DNA of 33,058 bases from Deltaproteobacteria bacterium (GTDB lineage: Bacteria; Desulfobacterota; Desulfobulbia; Desulfobulbales; Desulfobulbaceae): the NCBI GenBank assembly GCA_024278495.1, contig JAJRTB010000236.1:1-33058 (forward strand), written 5' to 3'. The translations under genes were made by a program, and so were the position numbers. Below, piece by piece: positions 17,064 through 31,775 of this stretch. The notes beneath the pieces were generated by a model that had not been told where the DNA came from, did no database searches, and saw only the letters and a list, made by a program, of their open reading frames with translations. Within the stretch, counting starts at the first letter, position 1, and each line of letters starts with the position of its first letter.

Positions 17064-17140
17064 CGGGAAGTGGCTCAGTCTGGTAGAGCACAGCGTTCGG
17101 GACGCTGGGGTCGGAGGTTCGAATCCTCTCTTCCCGACCA
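17064..17140 (+). tRNA. tRNA-Pro (anticodon CGG)
   Basis: Cloverleaf read by eye. The acceptor stem CGGGAAG pairs CTTCCCG. The D-arm is GCTC...GAGC with AGTCTGGTA. The anticodon stem CAGCG/CGCTG has loop TTCGGGA, giving anticodon CGG. The T-arm is GGAGG TTCGAAT CCTCT-type. A terminal A plus encoded CCA is present. 77 nt including CCA. It marks the border between conserved housekeeping genes on the left and the CRISPR island on the right, a common place for island insertion. Confidence 0.95.
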
Positions 17141-17199: not shown

Positions 17200-17661
17200 A
17201 TGGGCGGAAAACGAAAAAAGAAGACTGCGCTCTCCTCTCTGAACCAGGCCCTCCGTCGCCCTGACCTGAGCATTCTTGGTGACGCGGTGAAATCCCTGCC
17301 GCCCGCCCAGTGGCGGAACAGGATGTTTTTCATGGGCGTCCCGGACACCGATCTGCGCCGCCATACGGACGGTGGTTTTCCCGCAACCCTGCGGCCGGAC
17401 AAGGATACCCATCCCCTCTTTGTGCTCTCGGCGCGGACGACCGGCCCCCTGGTTTGCCCCTGTACCTCCAGAAGGGGGAGCAAACGTTCCAGGTACATTC
17501 AAAAAGGATGTCGCCTGGAGATGAAAGGGCATGTCATGGACCGGGATTCCTATCTTGTCGAGCGCTACAGTTTTACCCTGCCTCTGGATGGACGTTTTTC
17601 CCGCAAGTTGTTGTTCATGGGGCTCGTGCCGGACACTTGTCTTCGGGATGGTGGCTCGTGA
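17200..17661 (+). CDS. Unknown protein, first gene of the sigma-factor module
   Basis: 153 residues, basic N-terminus (MGGKRKKK). I do not recognise the family. A central stretch (about 70-147) has the alternating hydrophobic pattern and spacing HPLFVLS...LVCPCTS...DSYLV...RKLLFMG that faintly recalls MazF/PemK beta-barrels; this is a low-confidence impression. Two similar short motifs occur, MFFMGVPDTDLR (43-54) and LLFMGLVPDTCLRD (137-150). Four cysteines lie in the second half. There is no ribosome site and the tRNA terminator ends 10 nt upstream, so the start is uncertain (a TTG at 17188 is also in frame). The stop overlaps the sigma gene start by GTGA, so the two are translationally coupled. 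Confidence 0.6.
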   Translation: MGGKRKKKTALSSLNQALRRPDLSILGDAVKSLPPAQWRNRMFFMGVPDTDLRRHTDGGFPATLRPDKDTHPLFVLSARTTGPLVCPCTSRRGSKRSRYIQKGCRLEMKGHVMDRDSYLVERYSFTLPLDGRFSRKLLFMGLVPDTCLRDGGS

Positions 17662-18413
17662 GGCCGGCTGATTTGGCAGCGAAAAGGCTGCGTGATCTGC
17701 TTCAGACCGAAACCGGCCTGCGCGCGGCCAGGGCTCTGGTGCGCAAAGAGTTGCGCAGACACGTTCTTGACGGGGGCTTTGAACGTTCCCTTTCACGTCG
17801 ACACGGGGACGATCCCGGGGGGGCAGCCGATGAGCTGGTTCAGGATTTTCTTCTGTTCGTGTTCGATGAATTTCTGCCCGCGCTTCCTGCGCATCCCGAT
17901 TTTGTCGCCGCGTTGCTCCAGGGCCGTGGTGAAACAGTCCTGCGCATGGCTGTGCGACGGTTTTTCTGGCGCCGGCAGGATGCGTTCAGGACAAAGGAAG
18001 CAGATCCCAGAGCGTATCTGCACAGGAGAATCCGTGATATTGTGACAGGCGGTGATGCCTTTGTGACCCGTAAACAGGGGGGGAACCTTTTTTTTACCCT
18101 GGCGGACCTGGCTGAACGCATGGACGGCGGTGCGTCTTTCCCGCCCCGGCAATACGCCGGCTGGCCTCCTCCCGCTTCATTGGATGGGGCGGCGGACAGG
18201 GTTTTCAGCGCCCGTTACCTGGCAGAAGCCGCAGGTTTTTTCTGCCGTGAGGCCGTGCAACGCGACATTTATGCCTGGGTGCCTGTGCGGGAGGTTGTCA
18301 GGTATCTCGCGACCCATATCCCCGGCCTGGACCGTCCGAAGCTCCGCGTCCTGAGTGAAAACGATGCGCGGGTCGATTCTGCTTTGTCCCCTGAAAAAAA
18401 TACGCCCTCTTGA
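17658..18413 (+). CDS. Sigma-70-like factor, N-terminal part (region 2); frameshifted
   Basis: 251 codons from a GTG that overlaps the previous stop. Residues 47-75 (GDDPGGAADELVQDFLLFVFDEFL) resemble sigma region 2.1-2.2, where ECF factors read DDLVQEVFL, and 117-130 (PRAYLHRRIRDIV) resembles region 2.3-2.4. The reading frame leaves homology after SPEK, at a run of seven A (18394-18400), and stops at 18413. The next frame (-1) continues with KYALLRERVSVD and a region-4-like helix-turn-helix. Adding one A would give a single protein of about 349 residues, much longer than a usual ECF factor, with an insertion of about 100 residues between regions 2 and 4. It is probably the transcription factor of this island. 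Confidence 0.6.
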   Translation: MRPADLAAKRLRDLLQTETGLRAARALVRKELRRHVLDGGFERSLSRRHGDDPGGAADELVQDFLLFVFDEFLPALPAHPDFVAALLQGRGETVLRMAVRRFFWRRQDAFRTKEADPRAYLHRRIRDIVTGGDAFVTRKQGGNLFFTLADLAERMDGGASFPPRQYAGWPPPASLDGAADRVFSARYLAEAAGFFCREAVQRDIYAWVPVREVVRYLATHIPGLDRPKLRVLSENDARVDSALSPEKNTPS

Positions 18414-18706
18414 GGGAGCGAGTGTCAGTGGATGCCCTGGCCGCCCAGTTTGCCGGGGGACTGGACCAGGCCAGCGGAAAAATTTTTCTCTGGCGCCTGG
18501 AGGAACCACCCCTGACTTTTCGGGAAATAGCTCGCGCGCTCGCTCTTCCGGAACACAAGGTGTACGCGACGCATCGACAGACCGTCAGGGCCATGCAGAG
18601 CTTTGTCGCGAATTGGCCCGGCCCCCCGCTTGCCGATCTGGACGGGGGCGTCGGGCTGTATTTTATCGAGGCGGTGCGGAAAATTTGTGAAAAAAATGTT
18701 CGTTGA
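18410..18706 (+). CDS. Sigma-70-like factor, C-terminal part (region 4 HTH); frameshifted continuation
   Basis: 98 codons in the -1 frame relative to the upstream part, opening with a TTG that overlaps the stop at 18411-18413. The segment RLEEPPLTFREIARALALPEH...THRQTVRAM resembles sigma region 4.2: an EIA helix, a turn and a recognition helix ending in an R-A-M/L pattern. The frame stays open leftward to just before the A7 run at 18394-18400, which supports a single original gene. Alternatives are that the TTG is a true internal start giving a two-subunit sigma factor, or that a slippage event joins the two. The TGA stop of this part forms the first bases of the TGACCGTA motif. Confidence 0.55.
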   Translation: MRERVSVDALAAQFAGGLDQASGKIFLWRLEEPPLTFREIARALALPEHKVYATHRQTVRAMQSFVANWPGPPLADLDGGVGLYFIEAVRKICEKNVR

Positions 18707-18721
18707 CCGTAAAAGAGGGTA
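18690..18721 (+). promoter_or_regulatory. Island promoter-like motif, site 1 (upstream of anti-sigma gene)
   Basis: A7 tract (18690-18696), 7 nt, TGACCGTA (18704-18711), then GAGGGTA (18715-18721). The same order recurs before both CRISPR operons at 22.0 and 27.75 kb. The anti-sigma ATG is 57 nt downstream of TGACCGTA. Part of the motif lies in the last codons of the sigma gene. Interpretation as the recognition site of the encoded sigma factor is inference. Confidence 0.6.
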
Positions 18722-18768
18722 GGGAAATACGATGAAACAGATATTGAACAGAAACGTTTTTCAGCGCC

Positions 18769-19089
18769 ATGGATGAGATTCAGCGCAAACTGAGCTGGCA
18801 GAATGCGTGGATCCTTCGGTGCTGCCCTCCGCCGCATATTCTTCATGGCAGGATGACCCGGGAACTCAGGGAACATCTCGGGATCTGCCCTGCCTGTGCC
18901 GCCGCTCGCGGGGAAGGAAGTCTTTTTGATCTTTCTCCTGTCAGGCCTGATTCTCCTCCCGCCGCACCGCTGCCCGGTGAACTCTGGTCTCTTTCTGGGG
19001 AACTTTCCGGCTGGGGACCCAAAAACGGTACTACCACGGGCCGGTCGTCCTGGTGGTTGACGTGGTTGATTCGGCAGCCGTTCAGGTAG
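18769..19089 (+). CDS. Zinc-finger anti-sigma-like protein, N-terminal part; frameshifted
   Basis: Begins MDEIQRKLSWQNAW and contains HLGICPAC (His at about 37, with the HxxxCxxC spacing), the zinc-binding anti-sigma (ZAS/zf-HC2-type) motif, right next to a sigma-like gene. A Pro-rich linker follows. After GWGPK (about 19020-19026) the frame turns into low-complexity Thr/Ser/Trp residues and stops at 19089, while the -1 frame reads RYYHGPVVLVVDVVD and runs on to 19856. One extra A in the five-A run at 19021-19025 would restore a 362-residue protein. Unlike most membrane anti-sigma factors, neither part has a membrane segment, so the restored product would be cytoplasmic. Confidence 0.58.
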   Translation: MDEIQRKLSWQNAWILRCCPPPHILHGRMTRELREHLGICPACAAARGEGSLFDLSPVRPDSPPAAPLPGELWSLSGELSGWGPKNGTTTGRSSWWLTWLIRQPFR

Positions 19090-19856
19090 TGCAGACCTTT
19101 GGTGACGATTTTTTTCTCGGCCCGGGGGATGTCTCTCTGGACAATAATGTATCCGGCTTCGCGGAATGCTGGAACCGGTATGTCCTGCGGAAAAGCGACC
19201 TGGAATTTGCCCTTGGCCGTGTTTCAGAGAAGCGCCTTGCCCGGATCCGACAGGAGCTGGACGGCGAATCCGGGGCCGACGCCGATATAGAGCCGGGTTC
19301 CCTGCTCTGGTTTTTCCGGCAGATGGAGGTGGAAACGGGATTTTATTTCGCGTCCGGTTCCGTGGCCGGCCTGCTGGAAACAGATCCTGCCGAGCCCGTG
19401 ATTGTCGCGCCGCAGACTCTTCATGACGACCTGAAGGTATTACCCCTTGTCCCCCCTGCCTCCCCGCAGGACATGTCCGTGGAAACTGTGCTGGCCCGCA
19501 CAGTTCCCGCGGACGAACTCCTGCCCATGGCGGCGGCCGGTGCGGAGCCGGCCGGTATACCTGTCTTGCTCTTTACAGTCCGCCAGGGGCGGATTGTCGG
19601 GGCGCGGGTAACGGGCGCCGACATAACGGTTCAGACCGGTGAAGCCGGCGTTCTGCATATCAGCGGCGTGTGCGGTTTTGCGGCCATGCCGGAAGACAGG
19701 TGGATTTTTCGCTGGCAAACGGATGCCTGGTCCGTCGCCCCCCTGCCGGGGCAGTACGGGTTTGAGGATGGAGTGTTCTGGGCCTCATTCCCGGTTGACG
19801 GCCTGAGGGATCCGGCGGAAGGAGAACTGGTTATCCGTGTCCTCGTTTCTTCCTGA
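19053..19856 (+). CDS. Anti-sigma-like protein, C-terminal part; frameshifted continuation
   Basis: The open frame is usable from about 19020; the first internal start codon is GTG 19053 (MVDVVDSAAVQVVQ). The sequence is mostly beta-rich and acidic with no membrane segment. A stretch such as VVQTFGDDFFLGPGDVSL near the start reads as a small folded domain, and the C-terminal ~70 residues (VLLFTVRQGRIVGARVTG onward) look like a beta-sandwich. No catalytic motif is recognised. Continuity with the zinc-finger part is argued from the abrupt loss of plausible sequence in the upstream frame and its resumption here. Its 3' end overlaps the protease gene start by 20 nt. Confidence 0.55.
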   Translation: MVDVVDSAAVQVVQTFGDDFFLGPGDVSLDNNVSGFAECWNRYVLRKSDLEFALGRVSEKRLARIRQELDGESGADADIEPGSLLWFFRQMEVETGFYFASGSVAGLLETDPAEPVIVAPQTLHDDLKVLPLVPPASPQDMSVETVLARTVPADELLPMAAAGAEPAGIPVLLFTVRQGRIVGARVTGADITVQTGEAGVLHISGVCGFAAMPEDRWIFRWQTDAWSVAPLPGQYGFEDGVFWASFPVDGLRDPAEGELVIRVLVSS

Positions 19857-21918
19857 ATCTCCGGATATGCACCCGCACTGGCGGCAGCTTGCCGTGCTTC
19901 TGCGCAGTTCTCCCGAACATGGCAGGCAGCTTTTGCGAACGCCGGCGCCCGGTTCCTTCCCTGATCAGGAAACCCTGGAAACTCTCATGGCAACGGCCCG
20001 TTGCGCGGGCCTGGATGCGCTTTTTCAAAAGCACCTGCTGTCTGGTCTTGTCCGCGCTCCCGGGGAGGAGCGGTTGAAGCTGAAGGCGCGGGTCGGGTCC
20101 CTTTGTTCCGGCTGCATTGATGAACTGGTCCCGGCATCCCTGCTTAGCCGGCCCTGGATATCCGTGCCGGTTCCTGTCTCGCGTGCGGGATGGGCCGGTG
20201 TCGTCTGGTTTTGTCTCTGCCGGACAGGAGAGGAAACCGATTTCTCACCAGCGGGCAGGCCCGTTCCCGATGACCAGACCCTGAAAGCGATGCGCCTGGC
20301 GCTGGATGTTGGCGATCCCCGGAGCGGTCATCATCTCTGGTCACTGCAGGCGGACGAAGAGGTTCCGGTTACCGGCGGATCCCTGGGGCTTCCCGTGTTT
20401 CTGGGGGCGCGTTTTCTGGCGGAGAATGCCGCCTGGCCGTCAGGTCTGTTTGCAAGCGGCGTGATTGGTCGGGACGGCGTGATTGGCGCTGTGGCCAACC
20501 TGCCGGAAAAATACCGGTACGCGCGGGCCCGGCTTTTTCTCGCGCCTGCTGAAAACGGTGCGGAAATCATAAAACAAAAGAACGTGATTGCCTGCGCTGA
20601 AGCCGAAGACGCCTGGTTTGCGGCGGAACTCCTGGCAGGCGGCATCCAGCCGGGCCGGATCTCCCGCTACCAGTCCTGCAGGCACGATCCCGGAGAACTT
20701 CTTGCCCGGTTCCACTGTCTGCCGCTCCCCTTTCTTTTGAACAAAGAGACCTGTTTGCTGCTTGAACAGGTGCGGCAGCAACCTGTTGTCCATCTGAAAC
20801 AACTTGCGGAATGTCTGCGCAGGTGCGGGTTTGACCCTGCTCGCGGTTCCCTTGCGGCCGGATTGTTTTCACCCGGTGAGATCGGGGCTCTGGTCCGGGC
20901 TCCCGGGAATCCCCCTGATTTTGTCTTTGCCCTTTTTGACTGGTGCCTCGCGGTGATGGCTTTTGCCGATCATCAGGGGCGAACCGGCGAGTCCGCCGCC
21001 TGGGGCAGGGTAGCCGCCCGGATGATGGACATGGTTGAGCCGGGTGAGCGTGCCGAGCTGGCCAACCGCCTCATGGTTTCGGGCCGGTTCAACACCTATG
21101 ACTTCCGGCCGGAACTGCCCGACCTGTTCCGCCGTGCCCTGGAGCTGGAAGAGAGACATTACGAAGATTACCCGCACAGCAGTCATACCCTGGGCGCCAT
21201 GTACGGCACCCTGGCGCAGAACTGCGGTTTCTGCGGCCCGGACTTTCTGGAACAACTGCTTGGCGCTGCCGACAGGTCCCAAAAAGCCTTTGGCCGGAAA
21301 AACTGCCGCGAGGCAGGACGGCTCGATAACTACCGGATTTACGGCCTGCTCGATGCCGGCCGGACAGACGAGGCGGCTTCCCTTCTGTCCGGCTATTTCG
21401 GCCTGGATGGAGAACGCGATGCAGACGCCTTGTGGCGAACCGCCTGCGCCATGGCCGCTGACGGGACGACAGAGGACGTGTTCAGGGCGGCGCTCGGGTT
21501 TCGTTTCCTTGCCGATACCGGGTTTCGGGTCTCCGGTCCCCGGAACCTGCCGGTGCACTATGCCCTGGAGGGTGCCGGCCATCCGTGGCAGCTCTTGTCG
21601 CGCAATCTTGGCCGCATCCTCCTGGCCTCCGGCCGGCACAGCGAAGCGGAGCGGATGTTTCGCCGCAGTGTCGGGATCTGCCTGGCAGGCGGTGAGACAA
21701 TGCGGGCCATGGCGCTTTGTTCCCTGGCCGAACTGCACGCGGCAGGCATGGCAGGTGACGCCGATTATGAGCAGGCCGCCGCAACTGTCCGATGGATAGC
21801 GGAGGACTCACATCTGAACAGGGAGCATTTCAGCCGTCTGTACGGGGTGCCGGGCCGGGAGATCCCCGGCCTGGTCTTCCGGTGCGGAAATGAACTTTTT
21901 CCCTTCAGCTACCGATAA
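19837..21918 (+). CDS. Lon-type Ser-Lys protease domain protein with C-terminal helical repeats
   Basis: 693 residues from GTG 19837 (ATG 19867 is an alternative; an AAGGAG lies about 12 nt upstream of the GTG). Residues 160-270 resemble the proteolytic domain of Lon: a Ser in VTGGSLGLPV (Ser182), then SGVIGRDGVIGAVANLPEKYRYA (Lys225), followed by LFLAPAENGAE. The Ser-Lys spacing of 43 residues matches Lon. There is no Walker A or B, so it is not an AAA+ Lon. The first ~150 residues are unassigned. Residues ~290-693 are helical and TPR-like towards the end (AERMFRRSVGICLAGGETMRAMALCSLAEL). In context, the anti-sigma protein is the obvious candidate substrate. I see no SAVED or CARF motif, unlike CalpL. 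Confidence 0.65.
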   Translation: MSSFLPESPDMHPHWRQLAVLLRSSPEHGRQLLRTPAPGSFPDQETLETLMATARCAGLDALFQKHLLSGLVRAPGEERLKLKARVGSLCSGCIDELVPASLLSRPWISVPVPVSRAGWAGVVWFCLCRTGEETDFSPAGRPVPDDQTLKAMRLALDVGDPRSGHHLWSLQADEEVPVTGGSLGLPVFLGARFLAENAAWPSGLFASGVIGRDGVIGAVANLPEKYRYARARLFLAPAENGAEIIKQKNVIACAEAEDAWFAAELLAGGIQPGRISRYQSCRHDPGELLARFHCLPLPFLLNKETCLLLEQVRQQPVVHLKQLAECLRRCGFDPARGSLAAGLFSPGEIGALVRAPGNPPDFVFALFDWCLAVMAFADHQGRTGESAAWGRVAARMMDMVEPGERAELANRLMVSGRFNTYDFRPELPDLFRRALELEERHYEDYPHSSHTLGAMYGTLAQNCGFCGPDFLEQLLGAADRSQKAFGRKNCREAGRLDNYRIYGLLDAGRTDEAASLLSGYFGLDGERDADALWRTACAMAADGTTEDVFRAALGFRFLADTGFRVSGPRNLPVHYALEGAGHPWQLLSRNLGRILLASGRHSEAERMFRRSVGICLAGGETMRAMALCSLAELHAAGMAGDADYEQAAATVRWIAEDSHLNREHFSRLYGVPGREIPGLVFRCGNELFPFSYR

Positions 21919-21989: not shown

Positions 21990-22024
21990 AAAAAAAATAC
22001 ATTTCTGACCGTATAGAGAGGGTA
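21990..22024 (+). promoter_or_regulatory. Island promoter-like motif, site 2 (ancillary CRISPR operon)
   Basis: A8 tract (21990-21997), 8 nt, TGACCGTA (22006-22013), 4 nt, GAGGGTA (22018-22024). It lies 35 nt before the ATG of the small acidic protein that starts the csx20-csx1-cas6-cad1-nudix run. It is the closest match to site 1, sharing both the TGACCGTA and GAGGGTA blocks. Confidence 0.62.
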
Positions 22025-22048
22025 AGAAGATGAACAATGGAGAAAACA

Positions 22049-22324
22049 ATGGATCAGGATGATTTTTTTGATGATGATTGCATGGAAGAACCCCCGGATG
22101 AATCAGGCGAAGATGTTTATGACGACGATTTATCTGCGGGCGAATTCATTGAACCGGAACATGAACTTGATGAATTCGAGACAGGGGAGAAAACCGCGCA
22201 ACCTGACGCGGTACCTCCAGAAACAGGACCGGACAACGTTGATTTCGGCGCCGCCTTCATAGTCGGTTCAATGATAGCAGGCAACATGTATGGGCAGCGC
22301 AGGAGAACAAAGAAAAATGGCTGA
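22049..22324 (+). CDS. Small acidic protein with C-terminal hydrophobic tail, paralogue 1
   Basis: 91 residues. It begins MDQDDFFDDDCMEEPP, is extremely acidic (Asp/Glu-rich) through about residue 60, and ends with a Gly/Ala/Ile-rich hydrophobic stretch (FGAAFIVGSMIAGNMYG) and a basic tail RRRTKK. It could be a tail-anchored membrane protein, but the segment is short. ATG 22049 is chosen because GGAG sits 8 nt upstream and the paralogue at 27.8 kb starts the same way (MDEDNLFDDDD); an in-frame ATG at 22037 would overlap that ribosome site. The last 8 nt overlap csx20. I know of no named family. It is the first gene behind motif site 2. Confidence 0.7.
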   Translation: MDQDDFFDDDCMEEPPDESGEDVYDDDLSAGEFIEPEHELDEFETGEKTAQPDAVPPETGPDNVDFGAAFIVGSMIAGNMYGQRRRTKKNG

Positions 22325-22706
22325 CATGTTTTTGCTCTTTAACCACACCCTCACCCCGGTTCAGGAGGAGCAGGCCCGCCGGGAACTCGGAGTTAGGCAG
22401 ATTATCGAACCACCGGGGGATCTCCGCCGTATCTGGGCCGCTGTCCCGCCACGGGAGGAAGCCATCCGCCCGCACCTTCTCCCGGTCATAACCTGGCTTG
22501 ATGCCCAGGCGGTTGCGGGTGATTTTGTCCTCATCCAGGGTGACTTCGGCGCCTGTTTCCTGCTGGCAGACCATGCCCTGAACCAGGGATATATCCCTGT
22601 CTATTCCACCACGGAGCGCCGGGCAGTGGAAGAACAGCTCGCTGACGGCGGAATACGGCTGACCCACACCTTCCGGCACGTCCGGTTCAGAATCTATGGC
22701 AGGTAA
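22317..22706 (+). CDS. csx20: Csx20, putative cyclic-oligoadenylate ring nuclease
   Basis: 129-residue CRISPR accessory protein. MFLLFNHTLTPVQEEQARRELGV at the start, GDFVLIQGDFGACFLLA in the middle and IPVYSTTERRAVEE then FRHVRFRIYG at the end fit the Csx20 family as I recall it. Csx20 has been grouped with ring nucleases that degrade cyclic tetra-adenylate and thereby switch off type III effectors; activity here is inferred from family. ATG 22317 overlaps the preceding gene by 8 nt and starts the MADMFLLF family N-terminus. It is followed 9 nt later by csx1, so the probable antidote is co-expressed with the CARF effectors. Confidence 0.8.
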   Translation: MADMFLLFNHTLTPVQEEQARRELGVRQIIEPPGDLRRIWAAVPPREEAIRPHLLPVITWLDAQAVAGDFVLIQGDFGACFLLADHALNQGYIPVYSTTERRAVEEQLADGGIRLTHTFRHVRFRIYGR

Positions 22707-22715
22707 GGAGGAATT

Positions 22716-24005
22716 ATGCGGCGCGTATATCTGAGTTTTCTTGGGCTTGGCCAGTATGAAGAAACTGTCTATGAATTGAGTGCTAAACGTTCTGATCCGA
22801 CCCGGTTTGTCCAGGTGGCAGAGCAGATGCTCCTGGGTTGGGACCGGTTCGATATCCTCTATATTGTCGCCACCAGGGCCTCGAAGGAAAGACATTATGA
22901 CGCCCTGAGCAGGGAACTGGAACCCTGCCGCGGTGAGGTTCACCTGATCGAACTGGACGAGGATATGAGCAATGCCGGCCAGTGGCAATGGTTCGAGCGG
23001 ATCTTTTCTGTTGTCCGCGACGAAGATGAGCTTTGTATCGACCTGACCCACGGCTACCGGTCCATCCCGGTGGTCTTTTCCGCGGCCATCAATTTTCTTC
23101 AGAAAACAAAACAGATCCGCCTGGCCCATGTCTTCTACGGGGCCTTTGAACAAGACCGGCAACTGGCGCCGCTGGTGGACATGCGCTCCTTCTTCGACAT
23201 CAACACCTGGGCCGACGCGGTGACACGGCTGACACGTGACGCCGATGCCCGCGGCCTGGCCGAGGCTGCCGAAAGCACCAACAGACACCAGTTTGCCGAA
23301 TTGTCGGACAGGGACTTTGCCGATGCCTGCACGCAGGTGACCCGAAGAATCATCAATGTCGATGTCAACAATGTCGCGGATGATATTTCCAGGCTGATGA
23401 CTTGTATCGAACAGCTCGACAGCGCCAGCTCTCCGGCTGCCAAAATACTTCTGGAAATGGTCGCAAACAAGTTTTCTCTTCCCGGGGCCGCAAATGTCAC
23501 CAACCCGGACAGAACCGGCTATACCCTCGGGTATTACAAATTTCAGCTCAACCTGGCCGGACTGCTCCTCGAGCATGGCCTGCTCATGCAGGCATTTACG
23601 GTTATGCGCGAATGGCTGAGCTCGCTCGTCATGCTCCATTTTGAGCAAGAGGAAAGCCTGAATGCCAAAAAACGGCGGAAACGCGTCGATCATTACGGCG
23701 GCGTCTTTTTCAGGATGCTGCAGAATGTCGAGGAATCCTGGAATTTCAAGGGGTCGGAAGAACAGCGGCAACGGGTGGAGCCCTTGTACCGCAGGCTGAA
23801 GGAGGCCGGAGTGATCGAGCCCCTGATCAGCACTGATCCGTTACTGGCCAGTGAGTTGTCCAGTTACAGAAACGGCTTTGACCATGCCTGGCTTGGTAAG
23901 GCCGGAATGAAAGACGATCTGGAGGAGAAAGGCAGGTATTTCCACGAGACTCTTCAGGAAGTCCTGCTGAGGCTGGAAGGGTCTGACCGGTACGGAATAA
24001 TGTAA
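22716..24005 (+). CDS. csx1: Csx1-family CARF-HEPN ribonuclease (DxTHG motif)
   Basis: 429 residues. An N-terminal CARF domain (about 1-200, RVYLSFLGLGQYEETVY) carries the DxTHG signature at Asp109-Gly113 (DLTHGYRSIP) of the TM1812/Csx1 group and would bind cyclic oligoadenylate. The C-terminal helical domain has the HEPN motif RNGFDH (Arg385-x4-His390), the RNase active site formed in the dimer. Such proteins cut RNA non-specifically when the type III complex signals infection. It has a very strong ribosome site (AAGGAGG) overlapping the csx20 stop. It takes the role played by Csm6 in many III-A loci; no separate csm6 is seen. Confidence 0.9.
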   Translation: MRRVYLSFLGLGQYEETVYELSAKRSDPTRFVQVAEQMLLGWDRFDILYIVATRASKERHYDALSRELEPCRGEVHLIELDEDMSNAGQWQWFERIFSVVRDEDELCIDLTHGYRSIPVVFSAAINFLQKTKQIRLAHVFYGAFEQDRQLAPLVDMRSFFDINTWADAVTRLTRDADARGLAEAAESTNRHQFAELSDRDFADACTQVTRRIINVDVNNVADDISRLMTCIEQLDSASSPAAKILLEMVANKFSLPGAANVTNPDRTGYTLGYYKFQLNLAGLLLEHGLLMQAFTVMREWLSSLVMLHFEQEESLNAKKRRKRVDHYGGVFFRMLQNVEESWNFKGSEEQRQRVEPLYRRLKEAGVIEPLISTDPLLASELSSYRNGFDHAWLGKAGMKDDLEEKGRYFHETLQEVLLRLEGSDRYGIM

Positions 24006-24134
24006 TTCTCCGGCACCATTGTCAAATAGCTATGCACATTGACGATAGTATCGCCAGGCGAGAAGGGCGGGAAAGAACTACAGCCGGAGCAGGTGGCTCT
24101 GGGACCATTTACCGATAACCGACTGAAGAGAACC

Positions 24135-25100
24135 ATGACCATCAAAGCACAGACATACACCTTCCACTGCCGGTTTACCTCCGGTGCACGCTTGCCCGGC
24201 TATCTCGGCTCCACCCTGCGCGGGGCCCTGGGCTGGGCCCTGAAAAAGACGAACTGCGCCCTCAGACGGCAGCAGTGCAGCGACTGCCTGCTGCGGGAGC
24301 AGTGCACCTATGCCTGGATCTTCGAGACCGAGCGCTACCGGGCCAGGGACGGCCGCAGGGTCAATGCCCGGCCGCATCCCTTTGTCCTGCAGCCGGAAGA
24401 GGTCGTGGCCGGGGAAAAGAACATCGGTGATCCGCTTGTTTTTTCCCTGCTTCTCCTGGATCGGGCCAACGACCTGCTGCCGCAGATCGTTTACGCGGTC
24501 CGCCTCATGGGTGAATCCGGCATCGGCGCCGGTCGCAGGCACGGCATGGGCAGGTTTGTGCTGCAGCAGATTGTCACCACAGGCCGGAACATCTACTTAG
24601 CCGACAACGAGGTGCTGCGCCAGCCGGAGAAAATCGAACGGCTCCGGCTGGCTGACCCCGGCGATGGCGCTATATCAAGGCTGCAGGTTGACCTGCTGAC
24701 CCCGCTGCGCCTCAAGCAGAGCAACAGGATGGAGCTGAACCTGCCCTTTCACGTGCTCATCCGCGCCTGCCTGCGCCGCATCTCCTCCCTGGAGGACGCC
24801 TACGGAGCCGGCGAGCCTGATCTTGACTACCGGGGCCTGGCGAGCAGGGCAGGAGAGGTGCGGGAAAAAACAAAAAACATCCGCTGGCAGAAACTGCTCC
24901 GCTGGTCCAGCCGGCAGCGGCAGAATACCTCCCTGAGCGGCCTGGCCGGTTCCATCGGTTACCAGGGAGAACTTCGGGAATTCCTCCCGATCCTGCGCTA
25001 TGCCGAACAGGTCAACATCGGCAAGCAGACCGTGTTCGGCCTGGGAAAATTCCGACTGAGCCTCCATGGAGAAGGCAAAACCTGCCGGGGAGATAACTGA
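24135..25100 (+). CDS. cas6: Cas6 pre-crRNA processing endoribonuclease
   Basis: 321-residue RAMP protein that cuts the repeat in pre-crRNA. The C-terminal half has the Cas6-C pattern GLAGSIGYQGELREFLPILRYAEQVNIGKQTVFGLGKF, with the Gly-rich loop near the end. The N-terminus has RGALGWALKK and a Cys cluster C41-x6-C48-x2-C51-x5-C57, which could bind zinc and occurs in one Cas6 subfamily. Catalytic His cannot be assigned with confidence. A 129-nt gap separates it from csx1 and contains an 11-bp palindrome CGATAGTATCG (24043-24053) and a TTGTCA at 24019, so a second promoter here is possible. cad1 follows after 2 nt. Confidence 0.88.
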   Translation: MTIKAQTYTFHCRFTSGARLPGYLGSTLRGALGWALKKTNCALRRQQCSDCLLREQCTYAWIFETERYRARDGRRVNARPHPFVLQPEEVVAGEKNIGDPLVFSLLLLDRANDLLPQIVYAVRLMGESGIGAGRRHGMGRFVLQQIVTTGRNIYLADNEVLRQPEKIERLRLADPGDGAISRLQVDLLTPLRLKQSNRMELNLPFHVLIRACLRRISSLEDAYGAGEPDLDYRGLASRAGEVREKTKNIRWQKLLRWSSRQRQNTSLSGLAGSIGYQGELREFLPILRYAEQVNIGKQTVFGLGKFRLSLHGEGKTCRGDN

Positions 25101-25102
25101 AA

Positions 25103-27082
25103 ATGCAGAAAAACAGGCGGCCCGGCCCGGAACCGGTGGTTCTTCTCGCGGCCCTGGGCAATGTGGACCTGATCCTCGAATACCTGGATTTTTTCAATGG
25201 CGGCGCCCGCTTTTCCTATACCGGGGAAGCCGAACAGGTTCGCCGGGCGTTTTCCGGCTCCGGCATTGCCGCGGTGCACCTGATCTGTACCGCCGACAGC
25301 GGGAAAAAGCTGAAGGAACTGGAGGGCAAGGTTGTCGCCGACTATCCGGAGGTTGCCATCGAGCCGTTGTTCCTGCGATGTACGGACATCGAAACAGCCG
25401 CAGACGAACAGGAGATGAAGGAAGAAGTCTATGCCCTGGTCGAAAAGCTGGCCGGCTCCACCGGCAGGCTCATCATTTCCTCCGGCGGCCGGAAAACCAT
25501 GACCAACCGGCTGATCGAGGCCGGTCTCCTGCACGGCTGCGAGGGATACCTGGCCATCACCGATTCCCGGCAGACAGACCGGGACAAGCCAATAAGGGAC
25601 CAGACGAATACGTTCAACATCCTGTGGATTCCGGCCCGGCAATTCTATCGGGAACGGTGCGACGCCATACCCCTCAGGGATGGTATCGGAGACAACTTCC
25701 GTTCGCTTGCGATTCTTCCGCAAAGCGTGCTGAAAAAACTTCAGGAAGAACGGATCGGCGTGGACCGGGAACAATCCGACAGGGAACTGGTCTGGCTCAG
25801 AAAGCTGCCCAAGGCGGACCTGCACTGTCATCTCGGCGGCGCCTTTGACCTGCCTCTGCTCAGGAAGCTGGCACGCCTGATGGTCGAGGATTGTAGGCTT
25901 GACACCTCTGCCGTGAAAAAAATCGTCGAGGAAAAAACCGGTGTCTCTCTGCCGCGGCTGACTTCCGGACACCTGCGGAGCCTGCGACCGGAAGTCCGTC
26001 ACTGTCTCGACAATCTGGAAGAGCTGCTCGATCCGGTTCCCCCGGACGGCGGTATTCCGGCCCTGGTTGCCCAGCTCACGGACGAGCAGATCGAGGATCT
26101 CTCCTTTGACAGCAGGAAGATGCGTGACTGCCGCGCCAAGGACCTGGCCTGGTACATGACCTGCGGCGACCTGGGCGGCTCGGCCCTGCTGCAGACAGAG
26201 CGATGTCTGCGGGCAGCCATGTCCTGGCTTCTGCAGCGCTGTTACGACGACGGAGTCCGCTACCTCGAGGTCCGCTGCTCGCCGGACAACTACTGTCGCC
26301 GGGACCTGGACATCAGGGACGTGCTGAACATCCTTATCGACGAGGGCCGCAGTTTCATGCGGCGCCATGACGACTTCACGGTCAACCTGCTCGTCATGGC
26401 CACCCGTCACAAATCCCGGGCCGCCATGGCCAGCCATGTGAGCGCAGCGGTCTGTTTTGCCGGGAATACGCATCAGGGCTCCTCCAGGACACCCCGGGTT
26501 GTCGGCTTCGACCTTGCCGGCCAGGAAAAGGACCATGATCCTGTTCAGTTCCGGGATCTGTTCATGCCGCTTCATCACCATTTCATCAATATCACCATCC
26601 ATGCCGGCGAAATGGAGGATGACGACAGGATCTGGCAGGCCCTCTACGTCCTGCACGCCAAACGGATCGGCCATGGCCTCAAACTGATCAACAACAGGAA
26701 AATGATGCATTACATCCGCGACTACGGAACCGCCATCGAGATGTGTCCATCGTCCAATGTCCAGACCAACAGTTTCCATCTTCCCGGTGATGCATCTCCA
26801 CGTGACCGCTATCCTCTCAAAGAATACCTGCGTCACGGAATAGCGGTGACGATCAATACGGACAATCCCGGCATATCGGCTACCCACCTGTCCAGGGAGT
26901 ACCTGGTCGCGGCCCGCCTCAGCGAGAATGGCCTGTCACGCTGGGACATCCTCAAACTGGTACGCAATGGTTTCCGGGCCGCTTTTCTTCCCAAAGACGA
27001 GAAAGACCGGCTCCTCAAAAAGGTGGACAGACAGATATTCGACATCATTCTCAACAACTACTTTCAGGAGGATCGATCCTGA
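25103..27082 (+). CDS. cad1: Cad1, CARF-adenosine deaminase fusion effector
   Basis: 659 residues with two domains. The N-terminal CARF domain (about 10-185) has the ligand-binding loop ISSGGRKTM (125-133). The C-terminal adenosine deaminase-type amidohydrolase domain (about 235-645) has all metal and catalytic motifs: HCHLGG (His241, His243), ITIHAGEMED (His500, catalytic Glu503), RIGHGLKL (His524), CPSSNVQT, and INTDNPGIS (Asp587). Cad1 enzymes, recently characterised in type III CRISPR systems, are switched on by cyclic oligoadenylate and convert ATP to ITP, arresting growth of infected cells. It starts 2 nt after cas6 and overlaps the Nudix gene by 1 nt, so the three are one transcription unit. 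Confidence 0.9.
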   Translation: MQKNRRPGPEPVVLLAALGNVDLILEYLDFFNGGARFSYTGEAEQVRRAFSGSGIAAVHLICTADSGKKLKELEGKVVADYPEVAIEPLFLRCTDIETAADEQEMKEEVYALVEKLAGSTGRLIISSGGRKTMTNRLIEAGLLHGCEGYLAITDSRQTDRDKPIRDQTNTFNILWIPARQFYRERCDAIPLRDGIGDNFRSLAILPQSVLKKLQEERIGVDREQSDRELVWLRKLPKADLHCHLGGAFDLPLLRKLARLMVEDCRLDTSAVKKIVEEKTGVSLPRLTSGHLRSLRPEVRHCLDNLEELLDPVPPDGGIPALVAQLTDEQIEDLSFDSRKMRDCRAKDLAWYMTCGDLGGSALLQTERCLRAAMSWLLQRCYDDGVRYLEVRCSPDNYCRRDLDIRDVLNILIDEGRSFMRRHDDFTVNLLVMATRHKSRAAMASHVSAAVCFAGNTHQGSSRTPRVVGFDLAGQEKDHDPVQFRDLFMPLHHHFINITIHAGEMEDDDRIWQALYVLHAKRIGHGLKLINNRKMMHYIRDYGTAIEMCPSSNVQTNSFHLPGDASPRDRYPLKEYLRHGIAVTINTDNPGISATHLSREYLVAARLSENGLSRWDILKLVRNGFRAAFLPKDEKDRLLKKVDRQIFDIILNNYFQEDRS

Positions 27083-27711
27083 TGGAACAGGTTTTCTGTA
27101 TCGCCCGAAAAGACCTTGAAACGGTTTTTTCCAGCCCACTGCCCGAGGGAGTATCTCCGGAGCCGCCCCTGGAAACAGTGCTCGCGCTGCCGCATCACTT
27201 CATCAAGCGGACCGTGGCGGAAAAGAACCCGGCATACAAGCAAATCATTCCCTACCAGGTTTTTCACAGCAGCGGGCGTTTTTTTGTCTTCCGCAGGGGT
27301 GGAGGTGTGGGAGAGCAACGGTTGTCCGGGCGATGCTCCCTGGGGATCGGCGGGCATCTGAACCGCAAGGATGCGACTTCCAACCGTATGAACAAAACAG
27401 ACTATGAGCAGGGCCTTGTCAGGGAACGAACAGAAGAGCTTATCTGCCACGGCGATATATCGACCCGGTTCATCGGCTGGATAAATGACGATTCCGACCC
27501 GGTGGGCCGGGTGCACCTGGGAGCGGTTCATCTCTGCCTGGTGCGGGATGAAAACCATGTCCGCCTGCGGCCCGGCGGCGAGGACCTCCATTCCCTGGGG
27601 TGGTTGTCCAGCGACGAGATAGAGACCGGGAAGGATCAGTTCGAGCCATGGTCCCGGCTGGCCCTGGAACTTGCCAGCGCGTCACTGGCCCGGAAAAAAC
27701 ACGGTCGTTAA
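27082..27711 (+). CDS. Nudix hydrolase, putative partner of Cad1
   Basis: 209 residues. The Nudix box is present but stretched: GIGGHL (88-93), then an insert of about 10 residues, then YEQGLVRERTEEL (108-120), which supplies the REXXEE metal-binding helix (Arg114, Glu115, Glu118, Glu119). This form resembles the 'predicted phosphoesterase, MutT family' group (COG4112) as I recall it. Nudix enzymes cut diphosphates of nucleotides and derivatives. Because it is translationally coupled to cad1 (TGATG overlap) it may act on ITP/IDP made by Cad1, or clear another modified nucleotide; this is inference. A good ribosome site (AGGAGG) precedes it inside cad1. Confidence 0.72.
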   Translation: MEQVFCIARKDLETVFSSPLPEGVSPEPPLETVLALPHHFIKRTVAEKNPAYKQIIPYQVFHSSGRFFVFRRGGGVGEQRLSGRCSLGIGGHLNRKDATSNRMNKTDYEQGLVRERTEELICHGDISTRFIGWINDDSDPVGRVHLGAVHLCLVRDENHVRLRPGGEDLHSLGWLSSDEIETGKDQFEPWSRLALELASASLARKKHGR

Positions 27712-27730: not shown

Positions 27731-27770
27731 AAAAAAAATCACAATCTGACCGTACAAATAAAAAGAGAGC
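27731..27770 (+). promoter_or_regulatory. Island promoter-like motif, site 3 (cas10-csm operon)
   Basis: A8 tract (27731-27738), 8 nt, TGACCGTA (27747-27754), followed by an A/G-rich stretch with GAGAG at 27765-27769 instead of GAGGGTA. The spacing between A-tract and TGACCGTA equals site 2. It lies 61 nt before the ATG of the second small acidic protein. Another A8 run begins at 27721. Confidence 0.6.
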
Positions 27771-27815: not shown

Positions 27816-27998
27816 ATGGATGAAGACAACCTGTTTGATGACGATGATGCCCTGGATTACATCATCTATAAGGAATGTGAAAAAGACGAACGGCAGGACA
27901 TGAACAACAGCGGCGGCGGCAAGGGCGGATGCCTGGGAGTTGCGTTTTTTCTGCTTACGCCCGCCCTGACCGGCCTGCTGGCATGGAGGTGGATATGA
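27816..27998 (+). CDS. Small acidic protein with C-terminal membrane segment, paralogue 2
   Basis: 60 residues. The N-terminus MDEDNLFDDDDALDYI parallels MDQDDFFDDD of the 22.05-kb gene. Gly-rich linker GGGKGG and a clear hydrophobic segment (about 40-57, GVAFFLLTPALTGLLA) ending WRWI follow, so it is predicted to be a tail-anchored membrane protein. AAGGAG lies 8 nt before the ATG, the same arrangement as its paralogue. It is the first gene behind motif site 3, and cas10 follows after 22 nt. Function unknown; possibilities include membrane tethering, a membrane effector or a regulatory ligand. Confidence 0.72.
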   Translation: MDEDNLFDDDDALDYIIYKECEKDERQDMNNSGGGKGGCLGVAFFLLTPALTGLLAWRWI

Positions 27999-28020: not shown

Positions 28021-30594
28021 ATGGACCAGACAGTTATGAAAATAGCCCTTGCCGGCCTGATGCATGATGTCGGCAAGTTTGCCCAGGGAAGCATGGAGGT
28101 GTCTCCGCAATATGTCAATGATAATGCGGGACAGTATCAGCCTTTTTACAACAAACGCCATACCCATGTTCATGCACTCTACACAGCGGCCTTCATCGAG
28201 CAGTTTGGTGAGAAGATGCCCCGCTGTCTCAACGAACCTGGCTGGGGCGAAGGAGACAGTTTCGTCAACCTGGCGGCCGGCCACCACAGGCCGAAAACTG
28301 CAATGCAGGAATGTATTACCCAGGCGGATTGCCTGAGCGCAGGACTTGATCGGGCTGAATTTTCCGACCAGACGAATATCCCGTTTACGCAGTTTCGTTC
28401 CACCAGGCTGCTCTCGGTTCTTGAAGCTCTGGCCGTTGACGGTGACCCGCGGCAGCAGCAATTTGCGCAGTCTGACAGCTACAAAACCGCCTATGCACTT
28501 GCGCCTCTTTCGGCGACTTCTGCCTTTCCCGAACCAAGAAAAAAAATCAGCAGGCAAGAGGCCGTTAAGGAGTACCAGCAATTATTTGACGGGTTTATCG
28601 TACAACTTGCGGACCTGCCCCACAGGGAGCAACCGGAAATTTGGAGCCAGCATTTTGACAGTCTGCTTGCCTGTTATACCTCACATATTCCGGCGGCGAG
28701 AGTCGGGGGCGTTATTCCGGATGTCTCGCTGTACGACCACTGCCGGACAACGGCGGCCCTGGCGGTTCCCCTGTATATCTATCACAGGGAGACAGGTACT
28801 CTTGCCACAAAGGCTGTTCAGGACACCCGTCCTGAAAAATTTCTCCTGGTGTCAGGAGATTTTTACGGCATCCAGGACTTTGTTTTTTCAGCCGGTGGCG
28901 AGCAGCAGCGATTACGGGCCAAGCTCCTCCGGGGCCGGTCATTTGCGGTGTCCCTGTTCAGCGAGCTGGCGGCGGAGTCGTTGTGCCGGGCGTTGGATCT
29001 TCCCTTCACCGCCGTTTTTCTCAATGCCGCGGGTAAATTTCACCTGCTGGCCGCCAATACGGCCAACGCCCGAACGATTATCGACGAGACCGCCGAAAAA
29101 CTGAACGACTGGCTGTTCAGGATTTCTTACGGTCAGGCAAGCCTGGGAATAACTGCCACGCCGGCATCAGCGGCCAGATTCTGCCAGGGAGAATTTTCCC
29201 GGTTGTGGGATGAACATCTCCGGGCCATGGATCGCCGGAAATATCAGCGGATGCATCCTGGACGATACGGGGTCGTGGAGTCGTTTCTCAACTCCTTTAA
29301 CAACGATCTTGACAAGCCCCTCTGTCCTTTCTGCGGCAAGAGACCTTCCGTGCGAAAAGCTGAAAACAATGACTGGATTGACCGGCAGGGCAGTAGTTGC
29401 GCCATCTGCCGCGACCACATAATGCTTGGCGCCAACCTGGTCAAGGGCAGGAACCTGGCAATCTTTGATGGTGATGTACAGGCCCGGGAAAACGAACTCC
29501 TGCTGGAGCCCTTCTTTGACCGTTTCCAGGTGCGGTTCATGGAAGAGAAAGAGGTACCGGACGACGACGCGCTGGTAAAATTCTGCTGTCTTAACGTAAA
29601 TGAGGACGGTTCAATACCTGCGGCCGGGACAACCCGCCTGCTAAACGGTTATGTCCCGGTGTACTCGGAGAGTGTGCTGAAAAAACGCGCTGTCCTGGAT
29701 GTGCTGGAAAAAGAAGAAGATACCGTAGATCCCCGGGAACTCGTTGGCAACAGGGTTCCCCTGACATTCAACGCTCTTGCTGCCCTGGCCAAAAAGGATG
29801 GCCGGGGAACTGCGGCGCTTGGCGTCCTGAAAGCCGATGTCGATCATCTCGGCATGTTCATGTCCTGCGGTATGCCAAGAGAGCGATTTACCATATCGCG
29901 TATGGCAACACTTTCCCGGCGGCTGGACCAGTTTTTTACCCTGTACCTTCCGTATCTTCTTGGTTCCTGTGAAGAGTTCAACACAGTGTACACCGTGTTT
30001 GCCGGTGGTGACGATCTCTTCCTGATCGGCCCATGGAGCACCATGGCAGCCCTGGCCCGGAAACTCAGAAGGGACTGGAGTCGGTATGTCAGCGGCAACG
30101 ACCAGGACGGAGGCCTGACCTTTTCCGCAGGGATTACTCTGCACAAGACCCATGAACCGGTGGACAAACTGGCCGAAGCCGCGGAAGAAGCCCTTAAGCA
30201 GGCCAAGGAAAGCGGTCGCAACCGTATCTCCATGTTCGGGGAAACCGTGACCTGGGCAAAATTTGAAACCCTGCGTGAAAAGCAGCAGGCCATGGCGGGC
30301 TGGGTGGATCGGGAACTTATCTCAAAGGTCACGCTCTACCGCTTCAACGCCTTTATCGACATGGCAGGCAAGGCCGGGCGGATAACCCGCGCCGGCCGGG
30401 CCGTGTACATGCGTGACATGGAATGTTTGAAATGGCCGGCCCTGCTCAGGTACAGCCTGGAGCGGAATATCAGGAAAAAGGGCGCGGAGAGAGACGCGGC
30501 CATGCGGGAGGTTGTGGTGGTGAAAAACTGGCTGGAAGAATACGGCTCCGCGCTGAAGATAGCGCTTTGGAGCCAACTCTATGAACAACGATAA
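28021..30594 (+). CDS. cas10: Cas10/Csm1, large subunit of type III-A complex
   Basis: 857 residues. The N-terminal HD nuclease domain has LMHDVGKF (His15-Asp16) and, further on, AGHHRPK. A zinc ribbon is formed by Cys435/Cys438 and Cys460/Cys463 (CPFC and CAIC). The cyclase palm domain carries the GGDD motif at 662-665 (FAGGDDLFLIG). All active residues are intact, so target-RNA-activated ssDNA cleavage and synthesis of cyclic oligoadenylates from ATP are both expected. The C-terminal D4 helical domain ends at a TAA followed 14 nt later by csm2. GGAG precedes the ATG. This protein would produce the signal for Csx1 and Cad1. Confidence 0.95.
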   Translation: MDQTVMKIALAGLMHDVGKFAQGSMEVSPQYVNDNAGQYQPFYNKRHTHVHALYTAAFIEQFGEKMPRCLNEPGWGEGDSFVNLAAGHHRPKTAMQECITQADCLSAGLDRAEFSDQTNIPFTQFRSTRLLSVLEALAVDGDPRQQQFAQSDSYKTAYALAPLSATSAFPEPRKKISRQEAVKEYQQLFDGFIVQLADLPHREQPEIWSQHFDSLLACYTSHIPAARVGGVIPDVSLYDHCRTTAALAVPLYIYHRETGTLATKAVQDTRPEKFLLVSGDFYGIQDFVFSAGGEQQRLRAKLLRGRSFAVSLFSELAAESLCRALDLPFTAVFLNAAGKFHLLAANTANARTIIDETAEKLNDWLFRISYGQASLGITATPASAARFCQGEFSRLWDEHLRAMDRRKYQRMHPGRYGVVESFLNSFNNDLDKPLCPFCGKRPSVRKAENNDWIDRQGSSCAICRDHIMLGANLVKGRNLAIFDGDVQARENELLLEPFFDRFQVRFMEEKEVPDDDALVKFCCLNVNEDGSIPAAGTTRLLNGYVPVYSESVLKKRAVLDVLEKEEDTVDPRELVGNRVPLTFNALAALAKKDGRGTAALGVLKADVDHLGMFMSCGMPRERFTISRMATLSRRLDQFFTLYLPYLLGSCEEFNTVYTVFAGGDDLFLIGPWSTMAALARKLRRDWSRYVSGNDQDGGLTFSAGITLHKTHEPVDKLAEAAEEALKQAKESGRNRISMFGETVTWAKFETLREKQQAMAGWVDRELISKVTLYRFNAFIDMAGKAGRITRAGRAVYMRDMECLKWPALLRYSLERNIRKKGAERDAAMREVVVVKNWLEEYGSALKIALWSQLYEQR

Positions 30595-30608: not shown

Positions 30609-31046
30609 ATGGCTACAGTGACACTTTGGAAAAACAGGGACAAGAGAGAGGTCGATCCCTATCTCTTCTCGAAAACCGCTGATCAGTTGGCAAAAAAAAT
30701 TCATGAGGACGGTCTTGAAACATATTGGGACAAAAAAAATAACTGCAAAAAAAGCAGGGAAAAAAATAATTCAAGCACCCAGCTGCGCCGCTTCTTCGAC
30801 GAGTTGACCAGGCTCAACATCAAGGCGCAAAGTGGTGACGAGCCATGGGAGCTGATCATGCCCCAGGTCCACATGATGGTGGCCAAGGTCGCCTATGCCA
30901 AGGGGCGGGGCCTGGTCACGGATTCTTTTGTCAGCCTGTTTGGCGACACCATCCGCGACCAGGTGCAGGACAGGGACGATCTGTACACCTTTACCAGTTT
31001 TTTTGAATCCTTTATCGGCTTTTACAAATCCTATCGCAAGAATTAA
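30609..31046 (+). CDS. csm2: Csm2, small subunit of type III-A complex
   Basis: 145-residue, mainly helical, basic protein between cas10 and csm3, the invariant csm2 position. The C-terminal half (STQLRRFFDELTRLN, PQVHMMVAKVAYAKGRG, FTSFFESFIGFYKSYRK) fits Csm2 helices that line the crRNA-target duplex. The N-terminal ~55 residues are Lys/Asn-rich and less conserved. Its presence, rather than Cmr5, fixes the subtype as III-A (or the related III-D is excluded by Csm2/Csm5). Confidence 0.9.
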   Translation: MATVTLWKNRDKREVDPYLFSKTADQLAKKIHEDGLETYWDKKNNCKKSREKNNSSTQLRRFFDELTRLNIKAQSGDEPWELIMPQVHMMVAKVAYAKGRGLVTDSFVSLFGDTIRDQVQDRDDLYTFTSFFESFIGFYKSYRKN

Positions 31047-31063
31047 GAGAAGAGGTGACTTCG

Positions 31064-31765
31064 ATGAAATTGAAAGCAATCAGACAGATCACAGGCCGGA
31101 TTACCCTGCTCAGCGGCCTGCATATCGGGGCCGGAGACACGGAAATGCACATTGGCGGCACTGACAACACTGTGGTCCGCCATCCGCACACCAGGTTGCC
31201 CTATATCCCCGGATCATCCCTCAAGGGCAAGGTCCGGGCCCTGCTGGAAATGCGCTCCGGCTGCATGGCCGGGACCGAAGGCAGGGCGCTGCGGTTTACC
31301 CATCTGGAAAAATTCCATGGCCGGCAGTTAGAGGAAGCCAGGAAAATCTGCGCCCTGTTCGGCACCAGTGGGGCGGATGGCGAAGACGCCCGGGCATTCG
31401 GGCCGACCAGGGTCTCTTTTGCCGACTGCAGCCTCACCCCGGAATGGGAGGCAAAGGCCAGGGACGTTGCCCTGACCGAGATCAAGGCCGAAACCGCCAT
31501 TGACCGGATTTCCGGCACAGCTCTCGGGAAGTCTTTACGCCAGACCGAACGGGTGGTGGCCGGTGTTGCATTCGCCTTTTTCATCGCTATCAAGGAAATG
31601 GAAGGCGACGAGGATAAAGACCTTACCGGGCTGCTTCTCGAAGGCTTGAAAATGCTTGAACTGGATGCCCTGGGCGGAAGCGGTTCCAGGGGATATGGCC
31701 GAATTGCCTTTGCCTTTGATGATGCAACCATCCAGCAGCAGTTTGATGCGATCTCCTTTTCCTGA
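31064..31765 (+). CDS. csm3: Csm3, backbone RAMP subunit with target-RNA nuclease site
   Basis: 233 residues. Csm3 copies form the filament along the crRNA and cut target RNA every 6 nt. It has the typical N-terminus RITLLSGLHIGAGDTEMHIGGTDNTVV with the putative catalytic Asp34, then PYIPGSSLKGKVRALLE (the RAMP SSLKG loop), and a C-terminal Gly-rich GGSGSRGYGRI. ATG 31064 is chosen because GAGGTGA lies 6 nt upstream; a GTG at 31055 overlaps this ribosome site. It follows csm2 by 17 nt. Confidence 0.94.
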   Translation: MKLKAIRQITGRITLLSGLHIGAGDTEMHIGGTDNTVVRHPHTRLPYIPGSSLKGKVRALLEMRSGCMAGTEGRALRFTHLEKFHGRQLEEARKICALFGTSGADGEDARAFGPTRVSFADCSLTPEWEAKARDVALTEIKAETAIDRISGTALGKSLRQTERVVAGVAFAFFIAIKEMEGDEDKDLTGLLLEGLKMLELDALGGSGSRGYGRIAFAFDDATIQQQFDAISFS

Positions 31766-31775
31766 GGCCGTAACC

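Follow-up and report, generated by a model that had tools for sequence, protein, structure and literature searches.

How might a type III CRISPR locus be switched on at the level of transcription once foreign RNA has been detected? The window analysed here, a whole 33-kb contig (33,058 nucleotides; JAJRTB010000236.1) of a 2.55-Mb metagenome-assembled genome (MAG) from the Desulfobulbaceae, raises this question through four consecutive genes at 17200-21918, which a sequence-only reading had described as a sigma factor, anti-sigma factor and Lon-type protease module attached to a type III-A locus. The four genes are present there on the forward strand, which also carries the promoters and CRISPR genes given below, in the order gene A, sigma factor, anti-sigma factor and protease, and this order recurs across the phylum. 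The same strand continues with a small acidic open reading frame (ORF), Csx20, a CARF-HEPN protein, Cas6 and Cad1, then an ORF at 27082-27711, a second small acidic ORF, Cas10/Csm1, Csm2, Csm3 and Csm4; with these Csm proteins encoded downstream, the type III-A linkage holds. Relatives were drawn from a genome set of the same family, class and phylum that includes a Desulfobulbus and Syntrophobacteraceae records. We consider it probable that the cassette, taken as a whole, is a protease-triggered transcriptional switch linked to type III CRISPR.

A promoter motif shared by the operons of the locus argues for the transcriptional side of this switch. A genome-wide scan with the strict pattern AAAAAAN{4,10}YTGNCCGTA returned three sites, all in the window and on the forward strand, and a reversed control returned none. 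The three are predicted sigma promoters: 18690-18711 (an A-tract with TTGACCGTA) for the anti-sigma and protease genes, 21990-22013 for the csx20 operon, and 27731-27754 for the cas10-csm operon, the last also placed by site alignment. Because the strict pattern was derived from the window's own sites, the test of the motif must rest on relatives. In their loci, a loose form (A5-N7-15-CCGTA, at most 200 bases from a gene or operon start) was compared with shuffled sequences; it stood before csx20 or the equivalent operon in 10 of 10 relatives (shuffle mean 0.09) and before the anti-sigma gene in 11 of 21 (shuffle mean 0.06), and was found before gene A in 0/15, before Cas6 in 0/8 and before Cas10 in 0/7. 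A looser scan of eight genomes, which has background matches, led in five of them to a TPR-PrimPol-cas1-cas2 operon whose first gene has a site within ~50 bases. Cas1 was confirmed in all five operons and the primase and Cas2 wherever scanned, and CRISPR arrays lie near in the three loci examined. Altogether 28 sites align with nearly fixed spacing as AAAAAa-N8-cTGnCCGTA, a sequence that resembles a -35/-10 layout. The shared promoter motif mentioned in the sequence-only reading was thus borne out by the strict sites and the relatives' operons, and the conservation of these predicted promoters supports the view that the type III operons are controlled at the level of transcription. One further match, at G092:C1:2624357-2624379 in a one-contig genome, lies outside the CRISPR locus and may mark an extra regulon member.

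What would read these promoters? The sigma gene spans 17658-18706 and is interrupted in the window: the N-terminal part (17658-18413), on the region 2 side, matches residues 2-236 of relatives in which the gene is one ORF, and the C-terminal part (18410-18706) carries region 4. In the window's own protein, only region 4 was recognised by Pfam and profile comparison. The Pfam match to Sigma70_r4 is weak here (E=0.034) as it is in relatives' sigma proteins (E=0.012-0.026); profile-profile comparison gave region 4 at 89% probability and E=2.3e-6. Regions 2 and 4 are both covered through family members, in which the extracytoplasmic function (ECF) sigma model TIGR02937 spans regions 2-4 with matches under the NCBI curated cutoff in every case (L085, 8.4e-9; L084, 2.2e-4; the syntenic L082 sigma, 1.2e-6).

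The anti-sigma gene (18769-19856) begins with an ORF at 18769-19089 that encodes an HxxxCxxC zinc finger (zf-HC2, E=0.014). Its His and both Cys are invariant in 13 relatives' anti-sigma sequences and the syntenic L082 homologue exceeds the zf-HC2 cutoff, so the protein has the domain of zinc-binding anti-sigma (ZAS) factors. A second ORF (19053-19856), which in relatives forms one frame with the zinc finger, encodes the remainder, with a MazF-like and a C-terminal domain. The MazF-like part is visible by fold, and sequence comparison with PemK/MazF gave no significant match. In the predicted structure of the L007 homologue, weak overall (pLDDT 52.5, predicted local distance difference test) and fair over residues 90-187 (block means 59-88), all top Foldseek matches in the PDB are MazF (E=1.7e-4, probability 1.00, template-modelling score 0.76 by target length). 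On this model, the anti-sigma factor is predicted to join its zinc finger to a MazF-like fold, like CalpT of the CalpL-CalpT-CalpS (Calp) pathway. The zinc finger described in the sequence-only reading holds, with the correction that the anti-sigma factor is much larger than the zinc-finger ORF by itself.

A MazF-like fold invites another view of the output, in which cleavage would free this domain as an RNase, toxicity would be the main effect and sigma control would be secondary. The same idea was first proposed for CRISPR-T, the substrate of CRISPR-Lon, which was described as MazF-like and later renamed CalpT (PMC9704534). CalpT was subsequently described as an anti-sigma factor, however, within a protease, anti-sigma and sigma logic (PMC11417357), the window's protein gave no significant PemK/MazF sequence match, and the promoters point rather to transcription as the output. 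We regard toxicity as the main output as highly improbable.

Both regulators are split into two ORFs in this contig, with a one-base offset within an A-run in each pair. In relatives, the sigma factor is a single ORF of ~355 amino acids and the anti-sigma factor a single ORF of ~370 amino acids, and the window's halves align to both ends of each. The sigma-70-like and anti-sigma-like assignments of the sequence-only reading stand, through profile comparison and through curated models in syntenic homologues, but neither is the single gene here that it had supposed. Programmed frameshifting that would join the split ORFs was considered and rejected: it is unlikely because relatives do not conserve the A-runs and because the anti-sigma break lacks a usable slippery heptamer. 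The breaks are either sequence error or decay. If they are decay, two real frameshifts would have disabled the sigma and anti-sigma genes of this contig, and its promoters would be relics. Offsets in both genes and the eroded cassettes of a related genome (G008) fit such decay, whereas both offsets sit in A homopolymers, where errors of sequencing or assembly are typical, and the rest of the examined locus genes, including the protease gene, are intact. Decay of this copy, which would be compatible with a switch in the family at large, is doubtful in our judgement, if a serious candidate. G008 itself has two type III-A loci (L025 and L039) with truncated or eroded cassettes in which the csx20 promoter is kept.

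The protease (19837-21918) is the part of the switch that would receive the signal. Searched against the PDB, its family profile matched Lon proteases (E=1e-8), and family alignments show no variation at Ser182 or Lys225, as expected of the Ser/Lys Lon-type enzyme that had been proposed. CalpL was matched by the family profile over the Lon part alone, and neither SAVED nor CARF was detected by PDB profile search, the C-terminal profile or Foldseek. Instead, the C-terminal half (from about residue 260 to 693) is modelled by AlphaFold as a helical superhelix, with pLDDT mostly 70-92 from residue 260, and its best Foldseek matches are only TPR-type and other helical-repeat proteins. The lack of a recognisable SAVED domain and the TPR-like repeats described from sequence were thus both upheld. 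This half holds 33 of the 43 invariant positions of the protein, with conserved stretches at RFNRYDFRP, YGTLAQNYGFCGP, HPWQL and the terminal FPFSYR; R417, N419, N462 and H582 are among its conserved residues. PADLOC has no model that covers gene A, the sigma factor, the anti-sigma factor or the protease. As a candidate identity for the TPR half, Csx29 was rejected, since the family and C-terminal profiles matched none of its chains in the PDB.

How closely is this protease tied to CRISPR? Gene A, sigma factor, anti-sigma factor and Lon protease keep the same order throughout the class and the phylum (Desulfobacterota), nearly always adjoining type III CRISPR genes. The full-length C-terminal domain occurs in 18 of 395 phylum genomes, always in these Lon proteins, and 16 of those 18 encode a Csm1- or Cmr2-type Cas10. 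Within the class, Csm1 scored above cutoff in 9/15 genomes with the protease and 12/236 others (Fisher p=1.2e-7). Csx20 is a usual neighbour of the protease and lies directly downstream in the window's closer relatives. All eight Cas10 proteins checked keep the GGDD motif.

A search for neighbourhoods with and without type III loci, as the sequence-only reading had suggested, found mostly the former. The exceptions are cassettes beside curli genes (csgG, csgF, csgA/B and csgD-like) in two genomes, one of them a single contig (G528, with G423), in neither of which Cas10 scored above cutoff. Their Lon proteins (loci L086 and L088) keep the dyad, lack the conserved C-terminal motifs and have a different C-terminus. 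As for promoters at the curli genes, one loose match was seen in L088 and none in L086, and we do not claim it as a promoter. These cassettes are evidence that the module also occurs apart from CRISPR, as would be expected if it were a general stress-responsive sigma, anti-sigma and protease system, responding to a signal unconnected with Cas10 and merely keeping CRISPR genes under stress control. We think this quite unlikely, given that the curli versions are without the conserved C-terminal motifs and that Cas10 accompanies the full C-terminal domain in nearly all genomes that have it.

The C-terminal half is best read as a CRISPR-specific input domain, because the curli-linked cassettes without Cas10 lack its motifs. 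Elsewhere the same Lon protein takes the place that TPR-CHAT has in Craspase. In L035 (559-10338, in G029), Lon is preceded by a III-E-type sigma factor (68.7 bits, cutoff 100), a Csx31-like protein (142.7, cutoff 150) and a Csx30-like protein (157.3, cutoff 125) and followed by a reverse transcriptase-Cas1; by these matches it appears to be a Craspase-like set with Lon replacing TPR-CHAT. In L037, Lon follows a Csx30-like protein (106.7 bits, below cutoff) near Cas6 and Csx11.

Such neighbours bring in another kind of input. Csx29 (TPR-CHAT) docks on Cas7-11, and by the same token the TPR half of the Lon protein could dock on the Csm or Cmr complex as an RNA-guided protease partner, activated by target RNA without a second messenger. 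The layout of TPR plus protease fits this, as do the Csx30, Csx31 and III-E sigma homologues beside the same Lon in L035 and Csx30 in L037. Yet protein surfaces differ between Csm-, Cmr- and Csx11-type loci, all of which are accompanied by the C-terminal motifs of the protease; a PDB search with the C-terminal profile found no Csx29, Foldseek returned general TPR proteins, and a near-constant neighbour is Csx20, of the cyclic tetra-adenylate (cA4) ring nuclease family. Docking is unlikely in our view, if worth weighing. Since the C-terminal motifs span III-A, III-B and Csx11-type loci, a shared Cas10 product fits better than a protein surface as what the protease senses.

Combining what the sequence supplies (the cassette, the catalytic dyad, the zinc finger, sigma region 4 and the promoter with its predicted targets) with what models supply (the MazF-like fold and the helical repeats), we propose that the switch would work as follows. 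At rest, the anti-sigma factor, made up of zinc finger and MazF-like domain, would hold the sigma factor. On detection of foreign RNA by the type III complex, a Cas10-derived signal, most likely a cyclic oligoadenylate and less likely ribonucleoprotein contact, would act through the TPR-like C-terminal domain of the protease, whose Ser-Lys dyad would then cut the anti-sigma factor and free the sigma factor, as suggested by analogy with Craspase and Calp. The sigma factor would transcribe from AAAAAA-N8-cTGnCCGTA promoters, in this genome those of its own anti-sigma and protease genes (a feedback), the csx20-effector-cas6 operon and the cas10-csm operon, and in relatives also that of the primase-cas1-cas2 operon. 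Interference, effector, ring nuclease and acquisition genes would rise together with the inhibitor and protease. Three points in this scheme are inferred: recognition of this promoter by the sigma factor, cleavage of this anti-sigma factor by the protease, and the identity of the signal. The protease may, as the sequence-only reading suggested, sense a signal different from that of the known pathway.

Several observations weigh against this switch. In the nearest members of the family, sigma region 2 goes undetected. AlphaFold models the Lon part of the protease with low confidence, pLDDT falling below 50 in places. The motif before the anti-sigma gene is present in just 11 of the 21 relatives, and there it runs into the 3' end of the sigma gene, where coding constraint adds to its conservation; the csx20 site is outside such coding. 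Two genomes (G482 and G503) carry the protease without detectable Cas10, both MAGs with the cassette on short contigs. Finally, the frameshifted sigma and anti-sigma genes of the window and the eroded G008 cassettes suggest that some genomes may carry a non-functional module.

Is this, then, a new route of induction? It is new as a variant in its architecture, while Calp and Craspase already follow this logic, in which a protease cuts an anti-sigma factor and a sigma factor induces CRISPR genes. With CalpL-CalpT-CalpS (SAVED-Lon, anti-sigma and ECF sigma), in which cA4 triggers anti-sigma cleavage, the cassette shares a Ser-Lys Lon protease, an anti-sigma factor that is MazF-like by the L007 fold, a sigma factor and type III linkage. 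Unlike that pathway, it has no detectable C-terminal cA4-binding SAVED domain and has a TPR-like C-terminal half with family-specific motifs; its anti-sigma factor carries the HxxxCxxC zinc finger, gene A is extra, and curli-linked versions exist. Craspase (DiCASP: Csx29 TPR-CHAT, Csx30, Csx31, CASP-sigma and Cas7-11) resembles it in TPR plus protease, a sigma inhibitor, and sigma sites in the locus and before cas1, which are predicted sites here; for the Craspase sigma, sites have been reported within its locus, cas1 among them (PMC10028731). In place of the caspase-like CHAT protease of Craspase there is a Lon-type Ser/Lys protease, and in place of Cas7-11 a multi-subunit Csm complex with Cas10; Csx30 and Csx31 are absent from the window, though the same Lon adjoins their homologues in L035. 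The SAVED-CHAT/PCaspase cascade of type III-B is likewise a proteolytic response of a type III system, but neither a CHAT or caspase-like protease nor SAVED was found here. ECF sigma/ZAS pairs of the RsiW and RsrA type share the HxxxCxxC domain next to an ECF-like sigma factor, whereas here the inhibitor, of ~370 amino acids, contains a MazF-like domain and is linked to a Lon protease. The literature searched does not describe the architecture: no non-SAVED TPR-Lon sigma module was found, and older neighbourhood surveys (PMC6003329 and PMC6546367), outside that search, may list the genes.

The cassette would add a third protease architecture to the few CRISPR pathways that answer infection by transcription, and its readable, conserved promoter, unlike most cases, makes the whole regulon predictable. 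Because cassettes that have the CRISPR-specific domain and cassettes that lack it both occur naturally, there is a clean route to a possible new type III signal sensor, and the Lon protein beside Csx30 and Csx31 homologues links the Calp and Craspase pathways. More tentatively, and as a reading that could well prove true or false, the TPR-like Lon half may be a type III sensor fold that is neither CARF nor SAVED and is interchangeable between sigma/anti-sigma and Csx30/Csx31 cassettes, making acquisition and interference genes infection-inducible through one dedicated sigma factor.

Gene A (17200-17661; 153 amino acids), the first gene of the cassette, follows a tRNA-Pro at 17064-17140. It accompanies the cassette across the phylum, is 42-61% identical to 12 aligned relatives and carries invariant Cys residues (CPC...GC...C). 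Pfam, NCBIfam, PADLOC and PDB gave no match to it, and PemK/MazF was rejected as its identity, the profile comparison not being significant (probability 3.6%).

Downstream of the protease, the first gene after the promoter encodes a small acidic protein (22037-22324) and resembles, at the DNA level, the beginning of the second small acidic gene. Csx20 (22290-22706; NCBIfam NF040559, 142 bits) belongs to a family for which cA4 ring nuclease activity has been reported (PMC12409355). A CARF-HEPN (Csx1-like) effector follows (22716-24005; TIGR02221; PADLOC CARF_HEPN, E=2.9e-119), then Cas6 (24039-25100; PF10040, E=1.9e-17) and Cad1, a CARF-adenosine deaminase (25103-27082; PF00962; PADLOC CARF_ADA, E=9e-137), which thus shares the locus with the CARF-HEPN effector and Csx20. 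Between Cad1 and the predicted cas10 promoter, the ORF at 27082-27711 encodes 209 amino acids with no NCBIfam or PADLOC match. The second small acidic protein (27816-27998), with a hydrophobic C-terminus, has a 53% identical homologue in L025; the two acidic ORFs start alike (MDQDDFFDDD and MDEDNLFDDDD), and each comes first after a predicted sigma promoter. Cas10/Csm1 (28021-30594; TIGR02578, 570 bits) has its GGDD (662) and HD (15) motifs intact, and the type III-A backbone of Csm2, Csm3 and Csm4 (30609-32807) was identified by the search that found Cas10/Csm1 for Csm2 and Csm3 and by tblastn to relatives for Csm4.

Two relatives show further variation around the protease. In L082 (7333-14891), two Lon-family proteins of ~700 amino acids lie near each other, the second matching part of the family profile only, and in L036 (2079-9803) an ORF of 2,574 amino acids directly follows a truncated protease gene.

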